Positions 7,357-30,330 of a stretch of DNA of 64,000 nucleotides are shown here, one piece after another. The stretch spans positions 1 to 64,000 of the forward strand of contig JAJFHE010000025.1 of the NCBI GenBank assembly GCA_021775755.1, written 5' to 3'. The stretch comes from Hyphomicrobiales bacterium (GTDB taxonomy: Bacteria > Pseudomonadota > Alphaproteobacteria > Rhizobiales > JAJFHB01). Below the pieces are notes generated by a model, which had not been told where the DNA came from, did no database searches, and saw nothing but the letters and a program-made list of their open reading frames with translations. Position numbers and translations under genes: made by a program. Position 1 is the first letter of the stretch, and each line of letters starts with the position of its first letter.

Positions 7357-8772
7357 ATGGTGGGATCGACGCGTATCCGTCAATTGCTATCTATTTTCGC
7401 GATTTTATTCATCGCTCTCGCAGCCATTCCAATTGCTGCACCTGCACCCGCCGAGGCGCGCGAACGTTTCGCCGCGGTCACGGTCGATGCACACACCGGA
7501 ACCATTTTGTTTTCACGCAATGCGGACGCACGGCGTTACCCGGCTTCGCTCACCAAGATCATGACCCTTTACGTTCTGTTCGAGGAACTCAAGGCCGGCC
7601 GTCTGACGTTGCAGAGCAAGTTCACCGTGTCGCGGCACGCGGCCAGTATGCAACCCTCCAAGATCGGCCTGCCGGCAGGCGCCACGATCTCCGTTGAAAA
7701 CGCGATCAAGGCGCTTGTGACGAAGTCGGCGAATGACATCGCGGTTGTGGTTGCGGAAGGCGTTTCGGGCACTGAGTCGGCGTTTGCCCGGCGCATGACC
7801 CAGACGGCGCGGCGCATCGGCATGACCCGGTCTCAGTTTCGCAATGCTTCAGGGTTGCCCAACAGCCAGCAGGTGACGACGGCGCGGGACATGGCGACGC
7901 TTGGACTTCGCGTGCAGCGCGACTTTCCGCAGTTCTATCACTATTTCAGCCTGCGCAGCTTCACCTTCCGCGGTCGCACATATCGCACGCATAACCGGCT
8001 GCTCGGACGCTATGAAGGCACCAACGGTATCAAGACAGGCTACACGCGCGCTTCCGGCTACAATCTCACCGCCTCGGTGGTGCGCGGCAGGCGGCACCTT
8101 GTCGGTGTCGTCATGGGCGGACGGTCCGGGCGCTCGCGCAACGCATATATGCGCACCATGCTGACGCGTCAGTTCGGGCGCGCGCCGCAGTCGAGCAGTG
8201 ACACTGTCGCCCGCATGGCCGGCACACCGCCCGGTTTCAGGCAGGTGGCCGAGATCCGTGACAGCTATCCCCTGCCCCTCGATAAGCCCGGCACGGAAAA
8301 CGCCGATGCTCCGGTCGTGATGGCAGGCGTGGTGGCGACACCCCCGGCAATCGAGCCGGCGCCCGCGGCCCCAGCACAGCCCGAAATCGCACCGAATCCC
8401 GAAAGCACGGCAGTTCCCGAAAGCACACCGGCGCCGGAAATCATTATCCCGCAACCCGTTGCGGCCAATGCAGGCAATCCCTTCAACGCCCCGGCCGCCG
8501 AGCCGCCACAACACGACCCAAACTCCTGGGCCATCCAGATCGGTGCGTTTTCATCTGAGAACGATGCGATACGCCGCCTCGACGTCGCACAGGACCTCGG
8601 TCTCTCCGCGCTCAATGGAAGAAGTCCGTTCACGGTGGCGCATTTCGTCGAGGAGCGGGTCGTCTACCGGGCACGTTTCGGCGGGTTCGACCGCGAAGGC
8701 GCGGAAAACGCCTGCAAGCTTCTGGTGCGCAAGGCGATCAACTGCTTCGCGCTGGCGCCCAACGGGCAGTAA
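7357..8772 (+). CDS. D-alanyl-D-alanine carboxypeptidase (S11) with C-terminal SPOR domain
   Basis: A 471-residue periplasmic serine peptidase that trims the terminal D-Ala from peptidoglycan stem peptides. The signal peptide runs over residues 1-35 (cleavage near AEA). The three penicillin-binding motifs are present: S64-L-T-K67, S124-A-N126 and K226-T-G228. A Pro/Ala-rich linker (about 305-380) leads to a SPOR domain (about 385-465, NSWAIQIGAFSSENDA...), which binds denuded glycan at the division septum. The ATG at 7357 directly precedes the signal peptide; an open frame upstream to 7066 runs through promoter sequence and is not used. It is a lone gene between divergent and convergent neighbours. 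Confidence 0.93.
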   Translation: MVGSTRIRQLLSIFAILFIALAAIPIAAPAPAEARERFAAVTVDAHTGTILFSRNADARRYPASLTKIMTLYVLFEELKAGRLTLQSKFTVSRHAASMQPSKIGLPAGATISVENAIKALVTKSANDIAVVVAEGVSGTESAFARRMTQTARRIGMTRSQFRNASGLPNSQQVTTARDMATLGLRVQRDFPQFYHYFSLRSFTFRGRTYRTHNRLLGRYEGTNGIKTGYTRASGYNLTASVVRGRRHLVGVVMGGRSGRSRNAYMRTMLTRQFGRAPQSSSDTVARMAGTPPGFRQVAEIRDSYPLPLDKPGTENADAPVVMAGVVATPPAIEPAPAAPAQPEIAPNPESTAVPESTPAPEIIIPQPVAANAGNPFNAPAAEPPQHDPNSWAIQIGAFSSENDAIRRLDVAQDLGLSALNGRSPFTVAHFVEERVVYRARFGGFDREGAENACKLLVRKAINCFALAPNGQ

Positions 8773-8829
8773 AAACCCGGCACGCCGCCGCAGGCCCTGA
8801 ACACGCGGCCGCGCCCACATCACCTTCCG

Positions 8830-9855
8830 TCATTCGGCGTTTGCTCCAAACTTTCTGCGGTAATCTTGCGGCGATACGCCGGTGTGACGCACAAATGCCC
8901 GACGCAAACGCTGCTCACTTGCCAGGCCCGTTTCTTTGGCAATTCTCTTGAGCGCAATAACGGACTCCAATTCAAGCATGCGCTTGGCCGAATCGACGCG
9001 GATCATTTCAACAGATTTTGCGGGCGTGACCCCTGTGCGCTCCTTGTAACGTCGCGCAAACGAACGCGGGCTCATTCCAGACCGCTGTGCCAAAGCTTCC
9101 ACGCCGAGGTTGGCTTGCAGGTTTTCGGCGATCCACGCATGCAGCTCCGAAAATCTGCCGGCCTCATCCCGCTTTTGTGCATGAAGCACGTTGCTGAACT
9201 GGGACTGTCCGCCGGGGCGTTTGAAGAACACAACGAGCGACTGTGCCACCTGCATGGCAATTTGGTGATCATGATCTTCCTCGACCATGGCGAGTGCAAG
9301 GTCGATCCCCGAAGTCACGCCGGCAGCAGACCACATCTCGCCGTCCCGCACAAAAAGCGGGTCTTTTTCAACGTGGACGTCGGGATAAAGCTTCTGCAAC
9401 TCTTCCGCATACCTCCAATGGGTTGCGACGCTCTTACCATCGAGGAGCCCGGCCCTGGCCGTCACAAACGCACCCATACATGTGGTCGCCATGCGCCGGC
9501 ACTCGCGGTGCCGGGCGGCAACCCACTTGAGGGACCTGTCTTCCGACAGAAGATCGAACACACCTGCACCGCCCGATATGATCACCGTGTCTATCGGATG
9601 TTTCGACGCGGCGCACAGCGAGGCTGTACGAACACAAATGCCGGTATCGGTTTCAATGTCACCGCCGACCGGTGATGCCAGAAGTAGTTCGTATGCCGCC
9701 GGCTTGCCGTCCGACGCGAGCGTTGCGTTCGCGCTTGAAAATACCTGCGCCGGACCGGCGGCATCCAGAAGTGTCACGCCTGGATAGACGACAATCACCA
9801 CGCGTTTGCGTCGTGTCGTACTCGCGTTTGTGTGTTTGGCAGATTTTGAATGCAT
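8830..9855 (-). CDS. GlxA-type transcriptional regulator (DJ-1/PfpI domain plus AraC HTH)
   Basis: A 341-residue regulator. The N-terminal two thirds are a DJ-1/PfpI-like fold (VVIVVYPGVTLLDAAGPAQVF, IISGGAG, TTCMGAFVTARAGLLDGK) with a Cys at the nucleophile-elbow position. The C-terminal third is an AraC double helix-turn-helix (LAQRSGMSPRSFARRYKERTG and RIAKETGLASEQRLRRAF). This is the GlxA layout found in regulators of betaine/carnitine and arginine catabolism. The start at 9855 is chosen because the longer frame overlaps the divergent gene; no strong ribosome site is seen. It is divergent from an MFS transporter 75 bases away, its probable target. The ligand is unknown. Confidence 0.88.
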   Translation of the reverse strand: MHSKSAKHTNASTTRRKRVVIVVYPGVTLLDAAGPAQVFSSANATLASDGKPAAYELLLASPVGGDIETDTGICVRTASLCAASKHPIDTVIISGGAGVFDLLSEDRSLKWVAARHRECRRMATTCMGAFVTARAGLLDGKSVATHWRYAEELQKLYPDVHVEKDPLFVRDGEMWSAAGVTSGIDLALAMVEEDHDHQIAMQVAQSLVVFFKRPGGQSQFSNVLHAQKRDEAGRFSELHAWIAENLQANLGVEALAQRSGMSPRSFARRYKERTGVTPAKSVEMIRVDSAKRMLELESVIALKRIAKETGLASEQRLRRAFVRHTGVSPQDYRRKFGANAE

Positions 9856-23260: not shown

Positions 23261-25866
<2,606 letters not shown>

Positions 25867-25941
25867 CCTTTGCACGGAGGCCTTCGCCGGGGAGCCGAGA
25901 TAGAACAACCTCTATCCAAATCCGGGTGAACAGAAATCAGG

Positions 25942-25976
25942 AGCGGCGTTCCAGGGCAACCTGGAGCGCCGCTTTT
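25942..25976 (+). terminator. Rho-independent terminator after katG
   Basis: A 14-bp stem (AGCGGCGTTCCAGG paired with CCTGGAGCGCCGCT, one G-T pair) with loop GCAA, followed by TTTT. It lies 76 bases past the katG stop. Confidence 0.9.
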
Positions 25977-25990
25977 CGTTGCGGTAACCC

Positions 25991-26023
25991 AATGCCTCGG
26001 GATTGAACGTCACGCGAGGCATT
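25991..26023. repeat. inverted repeat upstream of the B12-binding mutase-like gene
   Basis: A perfect 9-bp dyad, AATGCCTCG...CGAGGCATT, with a 15-base loop, about 100 bases before the next gene. It could be an operator or a leader hairpin. I see no cobalamin riboswitch B12-box sequence in the 25867-26124 gap. Confidence 0.5.
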
Positions 26024-26124
26024 ATTGGGAGGGCCGGCGGAGGCCGCGCACGCGACAGCGAGACTTTGTTAACGGTTTCACGCACCGCTTCTTTCTTCTA
26101 TCTTCTGCCGGCCGACTGAACCCG

Positions 26125-27915
26125 ATGAGACAGGCAATGACGCTTGAGCGCAAGACGATCCTGCCAGAGACACAACTGCCGGACGCCGACGAAACGATAC
26201 AGGCCGGGCGGGCACTTGCGCGCGACTGGAACGTTGGCTCGTGTAGCTTTCTCACCGAGTTCGACGTTCGTTGCGAGGCCGAATTCAAGCGCGCGCAAAT
26301 GGCCCGCGGGGAAATCATGCAGCACGCCCAGGTCGGGTTTCGCGACCCTGAGAAATCACGCCGCGCCTGGGCCGAAATATACGAAAAATGTGACAAAGAA
26401 GGCGTTGGCGTCGACCGTTACGGCATCTGCCTCGACTGGTCTATGGGATATCCGCGTGACAGCCGGACCGACAAAATGCGCGGGACGGGTCTTATCCTTG
26501 AGGACATCGAGGAGTTCGTGACGCTCACGCAAGAGGCGCCGGTTGCTCCGCATTTCGGCGATTTCGTGCTCGGTTTCCCAGGTTCGATTGAAACCGCGCA
26601 GGCGGCGCTTGCGGCAGGTTCCACGTCTATCGGCAATCTCGGTCAGTATTTCACCTTCCGCCTGCCCGGCTGGGACGACGACGTCGCAACGACGCGAGCC
26701 ACCCTCACGGCGCTTGCCCTGCTTGCGGCGCAGCCCGTCGAAGTGCTCGTGCACTCCAATCTCGATGACGGTTATGCGGCGCAGTTTACGGACCTTGCCT
26801 CAAGTCTTGGTGCGGTTCTTCTGGAAAAACATATCGTCGAAAAATTGATCGGCGGCTCTATCAGCCATTGTTACGGACATCATTTTTCAGATCCACTGCG
26901 GCGCATGGCGTTTCAGCTTGCGCTGGCGCAGGCTACCGACACACCCGGCACCATGATCTATGGCAACACGACAAGCTACATCGGCGGTGACGCGCAGAAT
27001 TATGCGAGTCTTTCCTCATATTTGCTGAGCGACATTCATACACAGATTCAAGAGCCGACCGGCCATGCCGTGAACCCCGTGCCGGTGCGCGAGAACAGCC
27101 GCATTCCCGACATCGACGAGATCGTCAACGCTCAGCTGTTTGCCGCCAGGCTTACCGAGCACGCGGCACGCTACGGCGCACTGATCGATATGTCCGCGCC
27201 GCGGGAACTTGCGAGCGAGATTGTCAGCGGTGGGCGGGCGTTCTTCTCCGCAACGCTCGACGGCCTTGCGCAGGCGGGCATCGACACAAATGATCCGTTT
27301 GAAATGCTGCTGGCGCTGCGCCGGATTGGTGGCCGCCGGCTCGAACGGGAATTCGGTGCGGGCCGAATCTCCAGCGATGCTTCAGGCGTGCGCGAGCCGG
27401 TTGTCGCCTCGCCCGTTCTTGAAGAAATTGAAGACGTGGCGCGCGCAAGGCTTGAGCATCTGGCACCGCGGGAACGCGCCGCAGCAGTGGCGGCCGGGTT
27501 TAGCGTGCTTGTTGCAACGACGGATGTTCACGAGCACGGCAAGATGGTCGTAGAACGGATTCTCGGCGAAGCAGGCATCACGGCAAGAGACGGGGGTGTT
27601 TCGGTCGACCCCGACGCACTCGTGAACCTTGCGGGAACCAGCGGGGTCGACGCCATTGCCATCAGCACTTACAACGGCGTCGCGCTTGCATTCGTCGAAG
27701 ACGTCTTTGTCGAAATGGCGCAACGGAAACTCGACATTCCGGTTATGGTCGGCGGGCGGTTGAACCAGATACCCGCAGGCTCAAACACCAGTTTGCCGGT
27801 CGATGTTACGCGCGAATTGCGCGAGGCCGGCGCCATTGTCTGCGTGCATGCGGAAGAACTCGTACCCGCGCTCCTGAAAGCGGCGGCCGAAAAGAAAGGG
27901 CCAGACACATCATGA
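26125..27915 (+). CDS. glutamate mutase-like protein fused to a C-terminal B12-binding domain
   Basis: A 596-residue cytosolic protein. Residues about 80-400 resemble the TIM-barrel catalytic (E) subunit of glutamate (methylaspartate) mutase: KEGVGVDRYGICLDWSMGYPRD, GFPGSIETAQAAL and LEKHIVEKLIGGSISHCYGH. Residues about 455-590 form a cobalamin-binding domain with D467-x-H469-x-x-G472 (TTDVHEHGKMVVERILGEAG), a S514-T-Y loop in place of SxL, and GG at 543-544. In known glutamate mutases these are separate subunits with the B12 part as a small protein. ATG at 26125 or 26137 is possible. The stop overlaps the ProC-like gene by four bases. An adenosylcobalamin-dependent isomerase is inferred; the substrate is unknown. 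Confidence 0.72.
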   Translation: MRQAMTLERKTILPETQLPDADETIQAGRALARDWNVGSCSFLTEFDVRCEAEFKRAQMARGEIMQHAQVGFRDPEKSRRAWAEIYEKCDKEGVGVDRYGICLDWSMGYPRDSRTDKMRGTGLILEDIEEFVTLTQEAPVAPHFGDFVLGFPGSIETAQAALAAGSTSIGNLGQYFTFRLPGWDDDVATTRATLTALALLAAQPVEVLVHSNLDDGYAAQFTDLASSLGAVLLEKHIVEKLIGGSISHCYGHHFSDPLRRMAFQLALAQATDTPGTMIYGNTTSYIGGDAQNYASLSSYLLSDIHTQIQEPTGHAVNPVPVRENSRIPDIDEIVNAQLFAARLTEHAARYGALIDMSAPRELASEIVSGGRAFFSATLDGLAQAGIDTNDPFEMLLALRRIGGRRLEREFGAGRISSDASGVREPVVASPVLEEIEDVARARLEHLAPRERAAAVAAGFSVLVATTDVHEHGKMVVERILGEAGITARDGGVSVDPDALVNLAGTSGVDAIAISTYNGVALAFVEDVFVEMAQRKLDIPVMVGGRLNQIPAGSNTSLPVDVTRELREAGAIVCVHAEELVPALLKAAAEKKGPDTS

Positions 27916-28688
27916 GCGGCAAACGCGAACACACAATCGGCATAGTCGGGGTCGGGCATCTCACTGCGCACATGGTGCCCGGGCTGTTACGGGCGGACCC
28001 GGCGCCGAACATCGTGCTTTCGCCTCGGGGCCGCGAGCATGTAGCGCAACTGGAACGCGCTTATGACGTTGAAATTGCGGCATCAAATGAAGAAGTCGTC
28101 GACCGCTGCGCGACCGTTCTCCTCGGTGTCAGGCCGTTTCAGGCACTGCAAGCCGTCGAGGGCCTGCCGTGGCGGAGCGATCACACGCTGGTATCGCTGT
28201 GTGCCGGCGTAACCATCGCGGACCTATCCTCCCATCTCAACGGCGCCAGCGTGGTGCGTGCCATGCCCGTAATTGCTGCCAAGTTCGGCCACAGCCCGAC
28301 ATGCATTCACCCCGCCCATGCGGCAACCGAAAGTCTGCTGGCATCGTGCGGTCCGGTGATCGCGGTCGAACGGGAAATAGACGTCGACAATGCGACTATC
28401 AATGCCTGTTACTCAAGCTGGATGGTTGCACTCGTGGACACGGTACGAGGCTGGAACGAAGCGGCGGGATTCGACGCGCCTACCGCACGGCGACTTGCGG
28501 TACTCATGACCCGTGCCGTTGCGGAGACGTGCGAGGGGCGCGATGACGTCACTCTGGCAGAACTCACAGATGAACTGGCAATCCCCAACAGTGTTACGGG
28601 CGATGGCCTTGAGAAGTTGAGAGACGCCGGCGCCCTGTCTGCCTGGACGGCGTCATTCGACCTGATCTCGGCACAAATTCGCAAGTAG
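27912..28688 (+). CDS. ProC-like (pyrroline-5-carboxylate reductase superfamily) oxidoreductase
   Basis: A 258-residue Rossmann enzyme. IGIVGVGHLTAHM (9-21) is the NAD(P) loop; LLGVRPFQALQAVEGL and LVSLCAGVTIADLSSHLNGASVVRAMP follow the ProC plan. It differs from true ProC at key sites: MPNTPA is MPVIAA, and the SGSGPA segment of the C-terminal domain is missing (YSSWMVALVD instead). So it probably reduces an imine or oxidises an amine other than pyrroline-5-carboxylate. It overlaps the B12-binding mutase-like gene by four bases, which points to a shared pathway. Confidence 0.75.
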   Translation: MSGKREHTIGIVGVGHLTAHMVPGLLRADPAPNIVLSPRGREHVAQLERAYDVEIAASNEEVVDRCATVLLGVRPFQALQAVEGLPWRSDHTLVSLCAGVTIADLSSHLNGASVVRAMPVIAAKFGHSPTCIHPAHAATESLLASCGPVIAVEREIDVDNATINACYSSWMVALVDTVRGWNEAAGFDAPTARRLAVLMTRAVAETCEGRDDVTLAELTDELAIPNSVTGDGLEKLRDAGALSAWTASFDLISAQIRK

Positions 28689-28878
28689 CGCACCCTGCGG
28701 CATACGGCCCGGAAAACCGGCAGCTATTGACAAAAACCACGCGCTCCCACATGTTCCCGCGCATGAAATCGGGCGCGCACGAAGCCGAATCCCGATCCGC
28801 AATCGCTGAGGCCTTACTGGATCGCCGTCAGCGCCGCACCCTGAATGGGTTGAACGATAAAGAAACGATACTCCACTC

Positions 28879-30330
28879 ATGAGCTTTGACGACCTCGGAC
28901 TAAGCGCCAGGGCGCTCGCAGCCGTTACCGCGGCCGGATTCGAAATCCCTACCCCCATTCAGGCCCAAGCCATTCCTGAAGTTCTGGCGGGACGCGATGT
29001 CCTCGGCCTGGCGCAGACCGGCACCGGCAAGACCGCATCCTTCACCCTGCCGATCCTGACGCGCCTTGAAACCGGCCGTGCCCGTGCGCGCATGCCGCGC
29101 ATTTTGATCCTTGAGCCGACCCGCGAACTTGCCGCACAGGTGCACGAAAGTTTCGAACTGCTGGGCGCGAACTACAAGCTGACCATTGCCCTGCTTATCG
29201 GCGGTGTGTCTTTTGCCGACCAGGACCGCAAGCTCAGCAAGGGTGCCGACGTTCTCATCGCAACGCCAGGCCGGCTGCTGGACCACTTCGAGCGCGGCAA
29301 ACTTATGATGAACGGCGTTGAAGTCCTCGTCGTCGATGAAGCGGACCGCATGCTCGACATGGGGTTCATCCCCGATATCGAGCGAATCTGCAAACTCCTG
29401 CCCTTTACACGGCAAACGCTGTTTTTCTCCGCCACCATGCCATCGGAAATTCAGCGCATCACCTCAACGTTCCTCCACAATCCAGTGCGTATCGAGGTCG
29501 CCGCCCGCAGCTCCGTCGTGTCAACGATCCGGCAGCACTGGGTAAAAGCGCCGAGCGTGCCGAAAGAAAAACGCGCCGCCTTGCGCGATCTCATCGCCTC
29601 ACAACCGATCAAGAACGCCATCGTGTTCTGTAACCGCAAGCGCGATGTCGCCGTACTTGAACATTCGTTTCAGCGTCACAAACTCTCTGGAGGCGCGTTG
29701 CATGGCGACATGAACCAGCATGCGCGGCTGGAAACCCTGCAAAGGTTTCGCGACGGGGAGATTACGTTCCTGGTTGCAAGCGATGTCGCAGCACGCGGTC
29801 TCGATATTCCCGAAGTCAGCCATGTCATCAATTACGACATCCCTTCTGCGCCGGAAGACTACGTCCATCGTATCGGGCGCACCGGGCGCGCGGGGCGCGA
29901 AGGTCATGCATTCAGCCTGGTAACACGCGAAGACCGCGGCCGGGCGAAAGATATCGAGAAACTGATCGGACAAGAGCTCGACTGGTTCGGCACTGCGCCG
30001 TCCAAGGACGACGATGGGGACAGGCGGCGGCCCTCAAGAGGCAGTGGCAGGCGCGATGCCGCCAGCCGGCAAAAACAGTCTGCCGGCAAACGCGACGGAC
30101 CAAAGAAATCAGACGACAGCGATGCGGCTGTGGCGGAAGAAAACGTTACAATCGCAGAAGCTGCCGACGCGGAAGCGGCCAGCGAAACAAAATCCGCGCG
30201 CGCACCCCGCGAACGCTCGAGAAAATCGTCAGCGGCGGCCACTCAGGAACAAAAACCTGCCCGCGGGTCCGATGCGACCTGGAACGGCGGACACATTCCG
30301 GCATTTCTGCAGCGCTCCGTCAGGCCCTGA
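28879..30330 (+). CDS. rhlE: DEAD-box ATP-dependent RNA helicase, RhlE type
   Basis: A 483-residue helicase. The order is Q motif (SFDDLGL...GFEIPTPIQ), motif I AQTGTGKTA, Ia PTRELA, Ib TPGRLLD, II DEAD, III SAT, V ASDVAARGLDIP and VI YVHRIGRTGRAGR. The core ends near residue 370; a 110-residue tail is rich in Arg, Lys, Ser and Ala and likely binds RNA. These proteins remodel RNA in ribosome assembly, decay and cold adaptation. The 190-base upstream gap has no gene; a TTGACA at 28733 may be part of a promoter. Confidence 0.95.
   Translation: MSFDDLGLSARALAAVTAAGFEIPTPIQAQAIPEVLAGRDVLGLAQTGTGKTASFTLPILTRLETGRARARMPRILILEPTRELAAQVHESFELLGANYKLTIALLIGGVSFADQDRKLSKGADVLIATPGRLLDHFERGKLMMNGVEVLVVDEADRMLDMGFIPDIERICKLLPFTRQTLFFSATMPSEIQRITSTFLHNPVRIEVAARSSVVSTIRQHWVKAPSVPKEKRAALRDLIASQPIKNAIVFCNRKRDVAVLEHSFQRHKLSGGALHGDMNQHARLETLQRFRDGEITFLVASDVAARGLDIPEVSHVINYDIPSAPEDYVHRIGRTGRAGREGHAFSLVTREDRGRAKDIEKLIGQELDWFGTAPSKDDDGDRRRPSRGSGRRDAASRQKQSAGKRDGPKKSDDSDAAVAEENVTIAEAADAEAASETKSARAPRERSRKSSAAATQEQKPARGSDATWNGGHIPAFLQRSVRP

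Follow-up and report, generated by a model that had tools for sequence, protein, structure and literature searches.

A two-gene locus pairing a predicted cobalamin-dependent radical enzyme with a partner of the pyrroline-5-carboxylate reductase fold

Which reaction is served by two overlapping genes of a Hyphomicrobiales bacterium, the first encoding a barrel joined to a cobalamin domain and the second a reductase-like protein? The genes, here termed P1 and P2, lie in the first 64,000 nucleotides of contig JAJFHE010000025.1 (assembly GCA_021775755.1), a stretch referred to below as the window. A preliminary description of the sequence had proposed a B12-dependent rearrangement of an amino acid whose product is then reduced or oxidized at a C-N bond, and the analysis presented here partly supports this core interpretation. 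With a probability of roughly 0.6, P1 is predicted to be an adenosylcobalamin (AdoCbl)-dependent radical enzyme that acts without pyridoxal phosphate (PLP), and P2 its dedicated C=N oxidoreductase partner. The two open reading frames (ORFs) and their four-base overlap are as first described (Table 1), and both proteins are members of conserved families rather than chance frames.

Fold and cofactor site of P1

The AlphaFold2 (AF2) model of P1 has a mean predicted local distance difference test score (pLDDT) of 92.4 and a predicted template modelling score (pTM) of 0.92. Structural alignment with VIA-align places its barrel inside the class of B12-dependent mutases, the top match being glutamate mutase E (6h9e_B; Z 28.5, 356 residues, 3.3 Å; for model residues 17 to 438 against 1cb7_B, Z 28.3, 364 residues, 3.4 Å), followed by lysine 5,6-aminomutase alpha (8t0v_A; Z 25.8, 325 residues, 3.3 Å) and ornithine 4,5-aminomutase (3kp0_A; Z 21.9, 329 residues, 3.5 Å; a longer alignment to 3kow_B has Z 22.4 but 25.5 Å), whereas unrelated barrels reach only Z 16 to 17 (GcpE 16.7, ThiC 16.4). 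Model residues 57 to 596, from the barrel through the B12 domain, align with methylmalonyl-coenzyme A (CoA) mutase (2xiq_A; Z 19.3, 474 residues, 4.6 Å), which also has the lowest Foldseek E-value (3.9e-13).

The resemblance to glutamate mutase E proposed in the preliminary description therefore holds for the fold and fails for the sequence. No sequence similarity between P1 and GlmE was found by hhalign (probability 0.1 with two GlmE rows, and 2.1 with more P1 rows and three of GlmE, the GlmE alignment being shallow in both cases), and the window's genome contains no match to PF06368 (Met_asp_mut_E) at E 0.001 and none to PF09043, used for comparison with lysine 5,6-aminomutase and OraE. Given this lack of detected sequence similarity, P1 is regarded, as far as tested, as its own sequence family, sharing the glutamate mutase/aminomutase fold in the model. 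It would be very surprising if P1 were a diverged glutamate mutase making 3-methylaspartate, a reading to which the best fold match and the NadX-type aspartate dehydrogenase genes near P1 in rhizobia lend some colour, but against which stand the failure of hhalign and the absence of PF06368 from the genome. Residue correspondences between P1 and GlmE beyond the E-x3-P element described below were dropped as evidence, since the sequence alignment failed.

The C-terminal part of P1 matches the B12-binding family PF02310 with 41.7 bits against a Pfam cut-off of 32.1, and the DxHxxG box formed by D467, H469 and G472 is intact, as had been reported. In the AdoCbl mutase class this box signifies base-off/His-on binding of cobalamin. 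No Pfam family is listed for residues 1–461 at E up to 1, and the barrel has no match to a CoA-mutase family in Pfam or NCBIfam. In an alignment of 97 P1 rows, which contains near-duplicates (89 rows are distinct at 98%), D467 and H469 are found in every row and G472 in 92, with Ala in the remaining five (DxHxxG 92, DxHxxA 5). Also invariant are E51, K55, R98, D104, D146, N171, D215, D223, E234, E323, R326 and P328. The earlier suggestion that a B12 domain at the C-terminus of the same chain is unusual does not hold, as methylmalonyl-CoA mutase and OraE share this layout. Single chains with a different arrangement were observed in two genomes from the window's phylum, where a DxHxxG box, identified by eye, lies N-terminal to a glutamate mutase E part (L110:1474-3405 and L111:1477-4080).

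A second conserved element follows the last barrel strand of P1, where E323-x3-[IV]-P is kept in 97 of 97 rows (E-x3-I-P in 94, E-x3-V-P in three). GlmE reads K326-T-P-H-E330-A-I-G-I-P at matching spacing, that is, E330-x3-I-P; OraE reads T-P-D-E-G-R-N-V-P (E-x3-V-P) and lysine 5,6-aminomutase T-E-A-I-H-T-P (E-x3-T-P). Passages of a paper on ornithine 4,5-aminomutase assign its conserved E338 an important role in Co-C homolysis and suggest that the interaction of ribose with E330 of glutamate mutase is similar (PMC3958899). The Glu of OraE, residue 335 by count in the printed chain, is presumably this E338, given an offset of three. By spacing and conservation, E323 of P1 is proposed as the counterpart of the ribose-binding Glu.

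An assignment of P1 as a methyltransferase that uses methylcobalamin, with a betaine or an N-methyl amino acid as the methyl donor, is disfavored and has only a small chance of being correct. It can draw on the P1 box DVHEHGK, which resembles DVHDIGK of methionine synthase, and on the best NCBIfam match, which is the metH profile at 30.5 bits, confined to the B12 domain and far under the methionine synthase cut-off of 1010.85; demethylase-type genes near P1 point the same way, namely a GbcA-like Rieske protein in locus L093 and, in L030, a flavoprotein of the old yellow enzyme (OYE) type with a DUF3483/CCG protein. The barrel, however, aligns with Z 28.5 to glutamate mutase and, in the best row covering that barrel, with only Z 15.3 at 8.2 Å to methionine synthase, no better than unrelated barrels, and the E323 element likewise argues against a methyltransferase. 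So does the context of a divergent P1 (34% identity; L154, G002:C403, 568-3752), whose first base is also the final base of a MutL/GlmL-family gene scoring 397.5 bits, above its cut-off. Genes of the MutL type accompany glutamate mutase.

The fold matches in second and third place raise the question of whether P1 needs both PLP and AdoCbl and works as an aminomutase in the manner of lysine 5,6- or ornithine 4,5-aminomutase, P2 then oxidizing the diamine formed. An acetylornithine deacetylase-like gene lying 21 bases upstream of P1 in L035 (544 bits, above cut-off) is compatible with such a role. In those two enzymes the PLP is held by a lysine of the Rossmann domain, according to passages of the same paper (Lys144 and Lys629; PMC3958899). 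Among the 97 P1 rows, lysine exceeds 90% in two columns only, K55 and K473; the B12 domain has no candidate PLP lysine, its sole conserved lysine being K473, which adjoins the DxHxxG box and occupies the position of K in methionine synthase DVHDIGK. An aminomutase of this kind is accordingly very unlikely.

The partner P2 and its pairing with P1

P2 passes the Pfam cut-offs of F420_oxidored and P5CR_dimer, and its AF2 model (pLDDT 95.3) has the fold of pyrroline-5-carboxylate reductase (P5CR), aligning with 3tri_A at Z 27.7 over 253 residues and 2.0 Å. It scores under the NCBIfam cut-offs for PRK06476 (117 against 254 bits) and proC (TIGR00112; 95.2 against 196.75 bits). The motifs MPNTPA and SGSGPA, which define pyrroline-5-carboxylate reductase, are both absent from the P2 sequence, in agreement with the preliminary description, whereas the genome's own ProC on contig C33 keeps both, together with SPGGTT. 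Because this canonical ProC is present, P2 is probably not the proline enzyme of the genome. The loop at P2 residues 224–230 reads IPNSVTG in the window; the commonest form in the family is TPGGITE (12 of 42 rows), and the Thr of the TPGG-x-T loop is kept in 37 of the 42. In P5CR a loop of this type binds the substrate carboxylate. The window's own genome carries a second P2-family gene (215 bits; L141:9313-10083, G000:C30), the neighbors of which appear by eye to encode a tryptophan dioxygenase, a kynureninase, a DapA-like aldolase and a Rieske protein.

Scanning of genome contigs yielded 107 P1 relatives, the best 80 of which were taken as loci and reduced to 57 non-redundant loci at 80% identity (L029 was omitted, its P1 relative at 8001-9776 being split into two frames). 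Each locus extends up to 8 kb on either side of P1, often less. A P2-family ORF scoring at least 150 bits is present in 31 of the 57 loci and in none of 47 control stretches (p 4.4e-11); the control stretches, some of them shorter than 18 kb, come from contigs picked by number, and thus non-randomly, in P1-bearing genomes, and the 150-bit line was set after the scores were seen (they show a gap from 159 to 111 bits). In 26 loci P1 and P2 share a strand and are separated by fewer than 300 bases, in the order P1-P2 in 25 of these. Among 61 relatives, P2 at 150 bits or more occurs in 11 of 11 genomes with a full-length P1 and in five of 50 others (Fisher 1.0e-8). No P2 was found in the locus in 38 P1 genomes, of which 22 have a P2 of at least 190 bits elsewhere and four one of 120–149 bits.

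The two proteins also co-vary. The Mantel correlation of P1 and P2 distances is 0.61 over 28 distinct pairs, with no more than 0.32 reached in 2000 permutations (an initial value of 0.71 over 31 pairs included three near-duplicate pairs), and rises to 0.74 for the 26 pairs in which P1 precedes P2; part of the correlation comes from shared species history. In a tree of P2, one 100/100 clade of 57 rows holds 30 of 34 P1-adjacent rows, 13 of 16 rows from within P1 loci and none of the five rows from P1-negative genomes. The tree comprises 80 of 83 rows, the others being shorter than 180 residues or identical; its sampling leans to P1 genomes, and the window's own P2 is not among the rows. Because the other four P1-adjacent rows, all from genes upstream of P1, form a second clade, the link between P1 and P2 appears to have arisen more than once. 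The pairing of the two genes in related genomes is real. Of the three outcomes that would have spoken against the preliminary description, a barrel outside the B12-mutase class and a lack of conserved pairing thus did not materialize, and a methyltransferase assignment is disfavored.

Hosts of P1 are, as labeled, chiefly Alphaproteobacteria, with Gammaproteobacteria, a Ramlibacter, one Acidobacteriota metagenome-assembled genome and one record labeled Mesoflavibacter. Two genomes labeled as Asgard archaea (L037, L049) also carry P1; their two P1 proteins share 72% identity, and in the tree their P2 rows group as sisters. Mislabeling or contamination is possible in any of these records. P1 is rare in a draw from the phylum in which three candidates per genome were scored, being found at E 1e-20 in four of 398 genomes, one of them the window's own. 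One genome (G460) has four tandem P1 paralogues that are 45–53% identical to the P1 of the window (L048:1379-8400) and five P2-family genes of at least 200 bits.

Table 1. Positions in the window of P1, P2 and their features.
Feature	Position	Strand	Basis
P1, barrel with C-terminal cobalamin-binding domain; predicted AdoCbl-dependent radical mutase of an unnamed family	26125..27915	+	596-residue ORF
P1 triosephosphate isomerase (TIM)-barrel region, residues about 17–440	26173..27444	+	glutamate mutase / lysine 5,6-aminomutase fold (model alignment)
P1 E323-x3-I327-P328 element, proposed ribose-binding Glu counterpart	27091..27108	+	comparison with E330 of GlmE and E338 of ornithine 4,5-aminomutase
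P1 cobalamin-binding domain core, residues 462–546	27508..27762	+	PF02310, E 1.2e-10; same stretch in genome search
P1 DxHxxG box, D467, H469, G472	27523..27540	+	read in sequence; alignment columns
ATGA, stop of P1 overlapping start of P2	27912..27915	+	sequence
P2, predicted P5CR-fold NAD(P)-dependent imine reductase/dehydrogenase, partner of P1	27912..28688	+	258-residue ORF; Pfam; model
P2 Rossmann NAD(P)-binding domain, residues 8–99	27933..28208	+	PF03807 (F420_oxidored), E 2.1e-10
P2 P5CR dimerization domain, residues 163–246	28398..28649	+	PF14748 (P5CR_dimer), E 5.3e-06

Within 25800–29000 no match to a sigma-70-like promoter was found, and no Rfam family reaches its gathering threshold in the window. 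By eye, the pair sits between a catalase-peroxidase-like ORF upstream and a DEAD-box helicase-like ORF downstream.

Neighboring genes and the proposed chemistry

The surroundings of P1 in other genomes are richer in metabolic genes. In rhizobia (L088), P1 is clustered with P2 and with genes for a flavin adenine dinucleotide (FAD) dehydrogenase, a cupin, a NadX-type dehydrogenase, hydrolases, an acetoin-dehydrogenase-like complex, a carnitine-dehydrogenase-like protein and a short-chain dehydrogenase/reductase, and in Neorhizobium a branched-chain amino acid transporter follows the cluster. A similar cluster in Bosea (L121, L122; names by eye) contains P2 about 8 kb from P1. Beside P1 and P2 in rhizobia (L088:13536-14408, L107:16848-17708), and by eye in Bosea, lies a family of about 290 residues with no Pfam or NCBIfam match above cut-off. 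In Phyllobacterium the order is P2-P1, and the adjoining genes encode a proline racemase, an aldehyde dehydrogenase, an FAD oxidoreductase, DapA and an amino acid transporter. In L157 a cis-3-hydroxy-L-proline dehydratase (701 bits against a cut-off of 500) is encoded two genes upstream of P1. The GbcA-like gene of L093 directly follows P1 (417 bits, cut-off 670), with a PhyH-type protein also present; the OYE-type flavoprotein and DUF3483/CCG iron-sulfur protein of L030 likewise come after P1. Near P1 in L030 and L155 there are pyrroline-2-carboxylate reductase-like genes that score under their cut-offs, with a homologue in L035, and PxpA follows P2 in L072. In five further loci (L127, L135, L136, L140, L149), whose genomes carry P1 elsewhere, a class III aminotransferase-like gene stands directly upstream of P2; the one scored is HemL-like, under the hemL cut-off, and the other four are alike by their first residues. 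Taken together, the P1 neighbors suggest catabolism of proline, hydroxyproline (imino acids) or betaines.

Counts in the 57 loci and 47 controls are modest for these families: PhyH 6 versus 0 (p 0.024), GntR 7 versus 0 (p 0.012) and NadX 5 versus 0 (p 0.046), with p > 0.08 for the other families tested (HpbD/MR type 0 versus 1, FAD/KSTD type 1 versus 1). The queries were chosen after the P1 loci had been viewed and the p-values are uncorrected, so that P2 alone is taken as firm; a helicase negative control gives 6 versus 1 (p 0.093), which is attributed to shared synteny of close relatives.

Some of these neighbors bear on an unlikely alternative, in which P1 would use AdoCbl to carry out an elimination on a hydroxylated imino acid, as the B12-based equivalent of the glycyl-radical enzyme HypD, and P2 would reduce the pyrroline carboxylate formed to a proline. 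In anaerobes the hydroxyproline dehydratase HypD is paired with a P5C reductase. The genes around P2-P1 in Phyllobacterium, which we take to form a hydroxyproline-type pathway, would suit this alternative, as would the dehydratase gene of L157 and the pyrroline-2-carboxylate reductase-like genes of L030, L155 and L035. However, in AdoCbl eliminases, diol dehydratase among them, the cofactor is bound base-on and there is no DxHxxG box, whereas P1 has one; P2 lacks the two P5CR motifs in a genome with a normal ProC; and these sporadic neighbors vary from locus to locus.

In the favored reading, P1 as a PLP-free radical enzyme with P2 as its C=N partner, the C-terminal domain of P1 would hold cobalamin base-off/His-on through H469, and the barrel would hold the substrate and the adenosyl radical, with E323 on the ribose. 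Precedent would make P1 a carbon-skeleton mutase, probably acting on a small amino or imino acid without CoA, and P2 would use NAD(P) to form or remove a C=N bond on an intermediate adjacent to the P1 step. The use of AdoCbl over methylcobalamin, the mutase chemistry, the amino-acid substrate and the order of the two steps are what we infer from these comparisons. In some hosts the pathway could concern cyclic or N-methylated amino acids (proline, hydroxyproline, betaines). Rearrangement of an amino acid and reduction or oxidation of the product at C-N, as originally proposed, is plausible, given the partner and the neighbors. Tentatively, P1 may subject a cyclic or N-methylated amino acid to an unrecorded AdoCbl radical reaction, either a skeletal rearrangement or an elimination, and together with P2 provide an aerobic route for imino acids that glycyl-radical enzymes handle in anaerobes.

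Several observations weigh against the favored reading. The metH profile is the best NCBIfam match of P1, as noted above. An E-x3-[IVT]-P pattern occurs by chance in 367 of 2000 shuffled barrels, so that only the conservation and place of the element count, and a MutL match above cut-off is a single case, found in one of 61 relatives. P2 does not seem to be obligatory for P1, because 12 of the 38 P1 genomes with no P2 in the locus have no P2-family match above 107 bits (genome completeness is not given), and adjacency to P1 requires at least nine gains or losses on the P2 tree. In the window, no transporter or pathway/catabolic gene adjoins the pair by eye, and elsewhere the catabolic neighbors of P1 are sporadic, few per family and different between loci.

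Comparison with known systems

No relevant-looking paper on the P1-P2 pair or the P1 family was found in the open-license literature of PubMed Central, and to our knowledge only about ten AdoCbl-dependent rearrangements are known. The novelty lies in a family, distinct in sequence, that shares the glutamate mutase/aminomutase fold, is probably AdoCbl-dependent and PLP-free, and comes with a co-varying partner of the P5CR fold. A separate family that shares this fold and has a dedicated, co-varying partner may well mean an undescribed reaction and pathway, present in soil and marine bacteria, plant-associated rhizobia and two Asgard archaeal genomes, and the small size of the pair and its confident models make the prediction directly testable.

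Among known systems, glutamate mutase (GlmE with GlmS; 1cb7, 6h9e) shares with P1 the barrel fold, a DxHxxG cobalamin domain and Glu-x3-Ile-Pro, whereas P1 has its cobalamin domain fused C-terminally, no PF06368 match, no detectable sequence similarity to that enzyme, and a P5CR-fold partner. Lysine 5,6-aminomutase alpha and OraE have the same barrel fold with Glu-x3-Thr/Val-Pro, and OraE also a C-terminal B12 domain, but P1 differs from both in offering no PLP lysine candidate in that domain. Methylmalonyl-CoA mutase is, like P1, a single chain with a barrel followed by a B12 domain; P1 is shorter, aligns to it with a lower Z than to GlmE, and has a barrel that matches no CoA-mutase family. 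P2, finally, differs from pyrroline-5-carboxylate reductase (ProC; PRK06476 subgroup) in falling below the NCBIfam cut-offs, in the loss of MPNTPA and SGSGPA and in its coexistence with a canonical ProC, but resembles it in its fold, its NAD(P) and dimer domains and the loop Thr that most members of its family keep.

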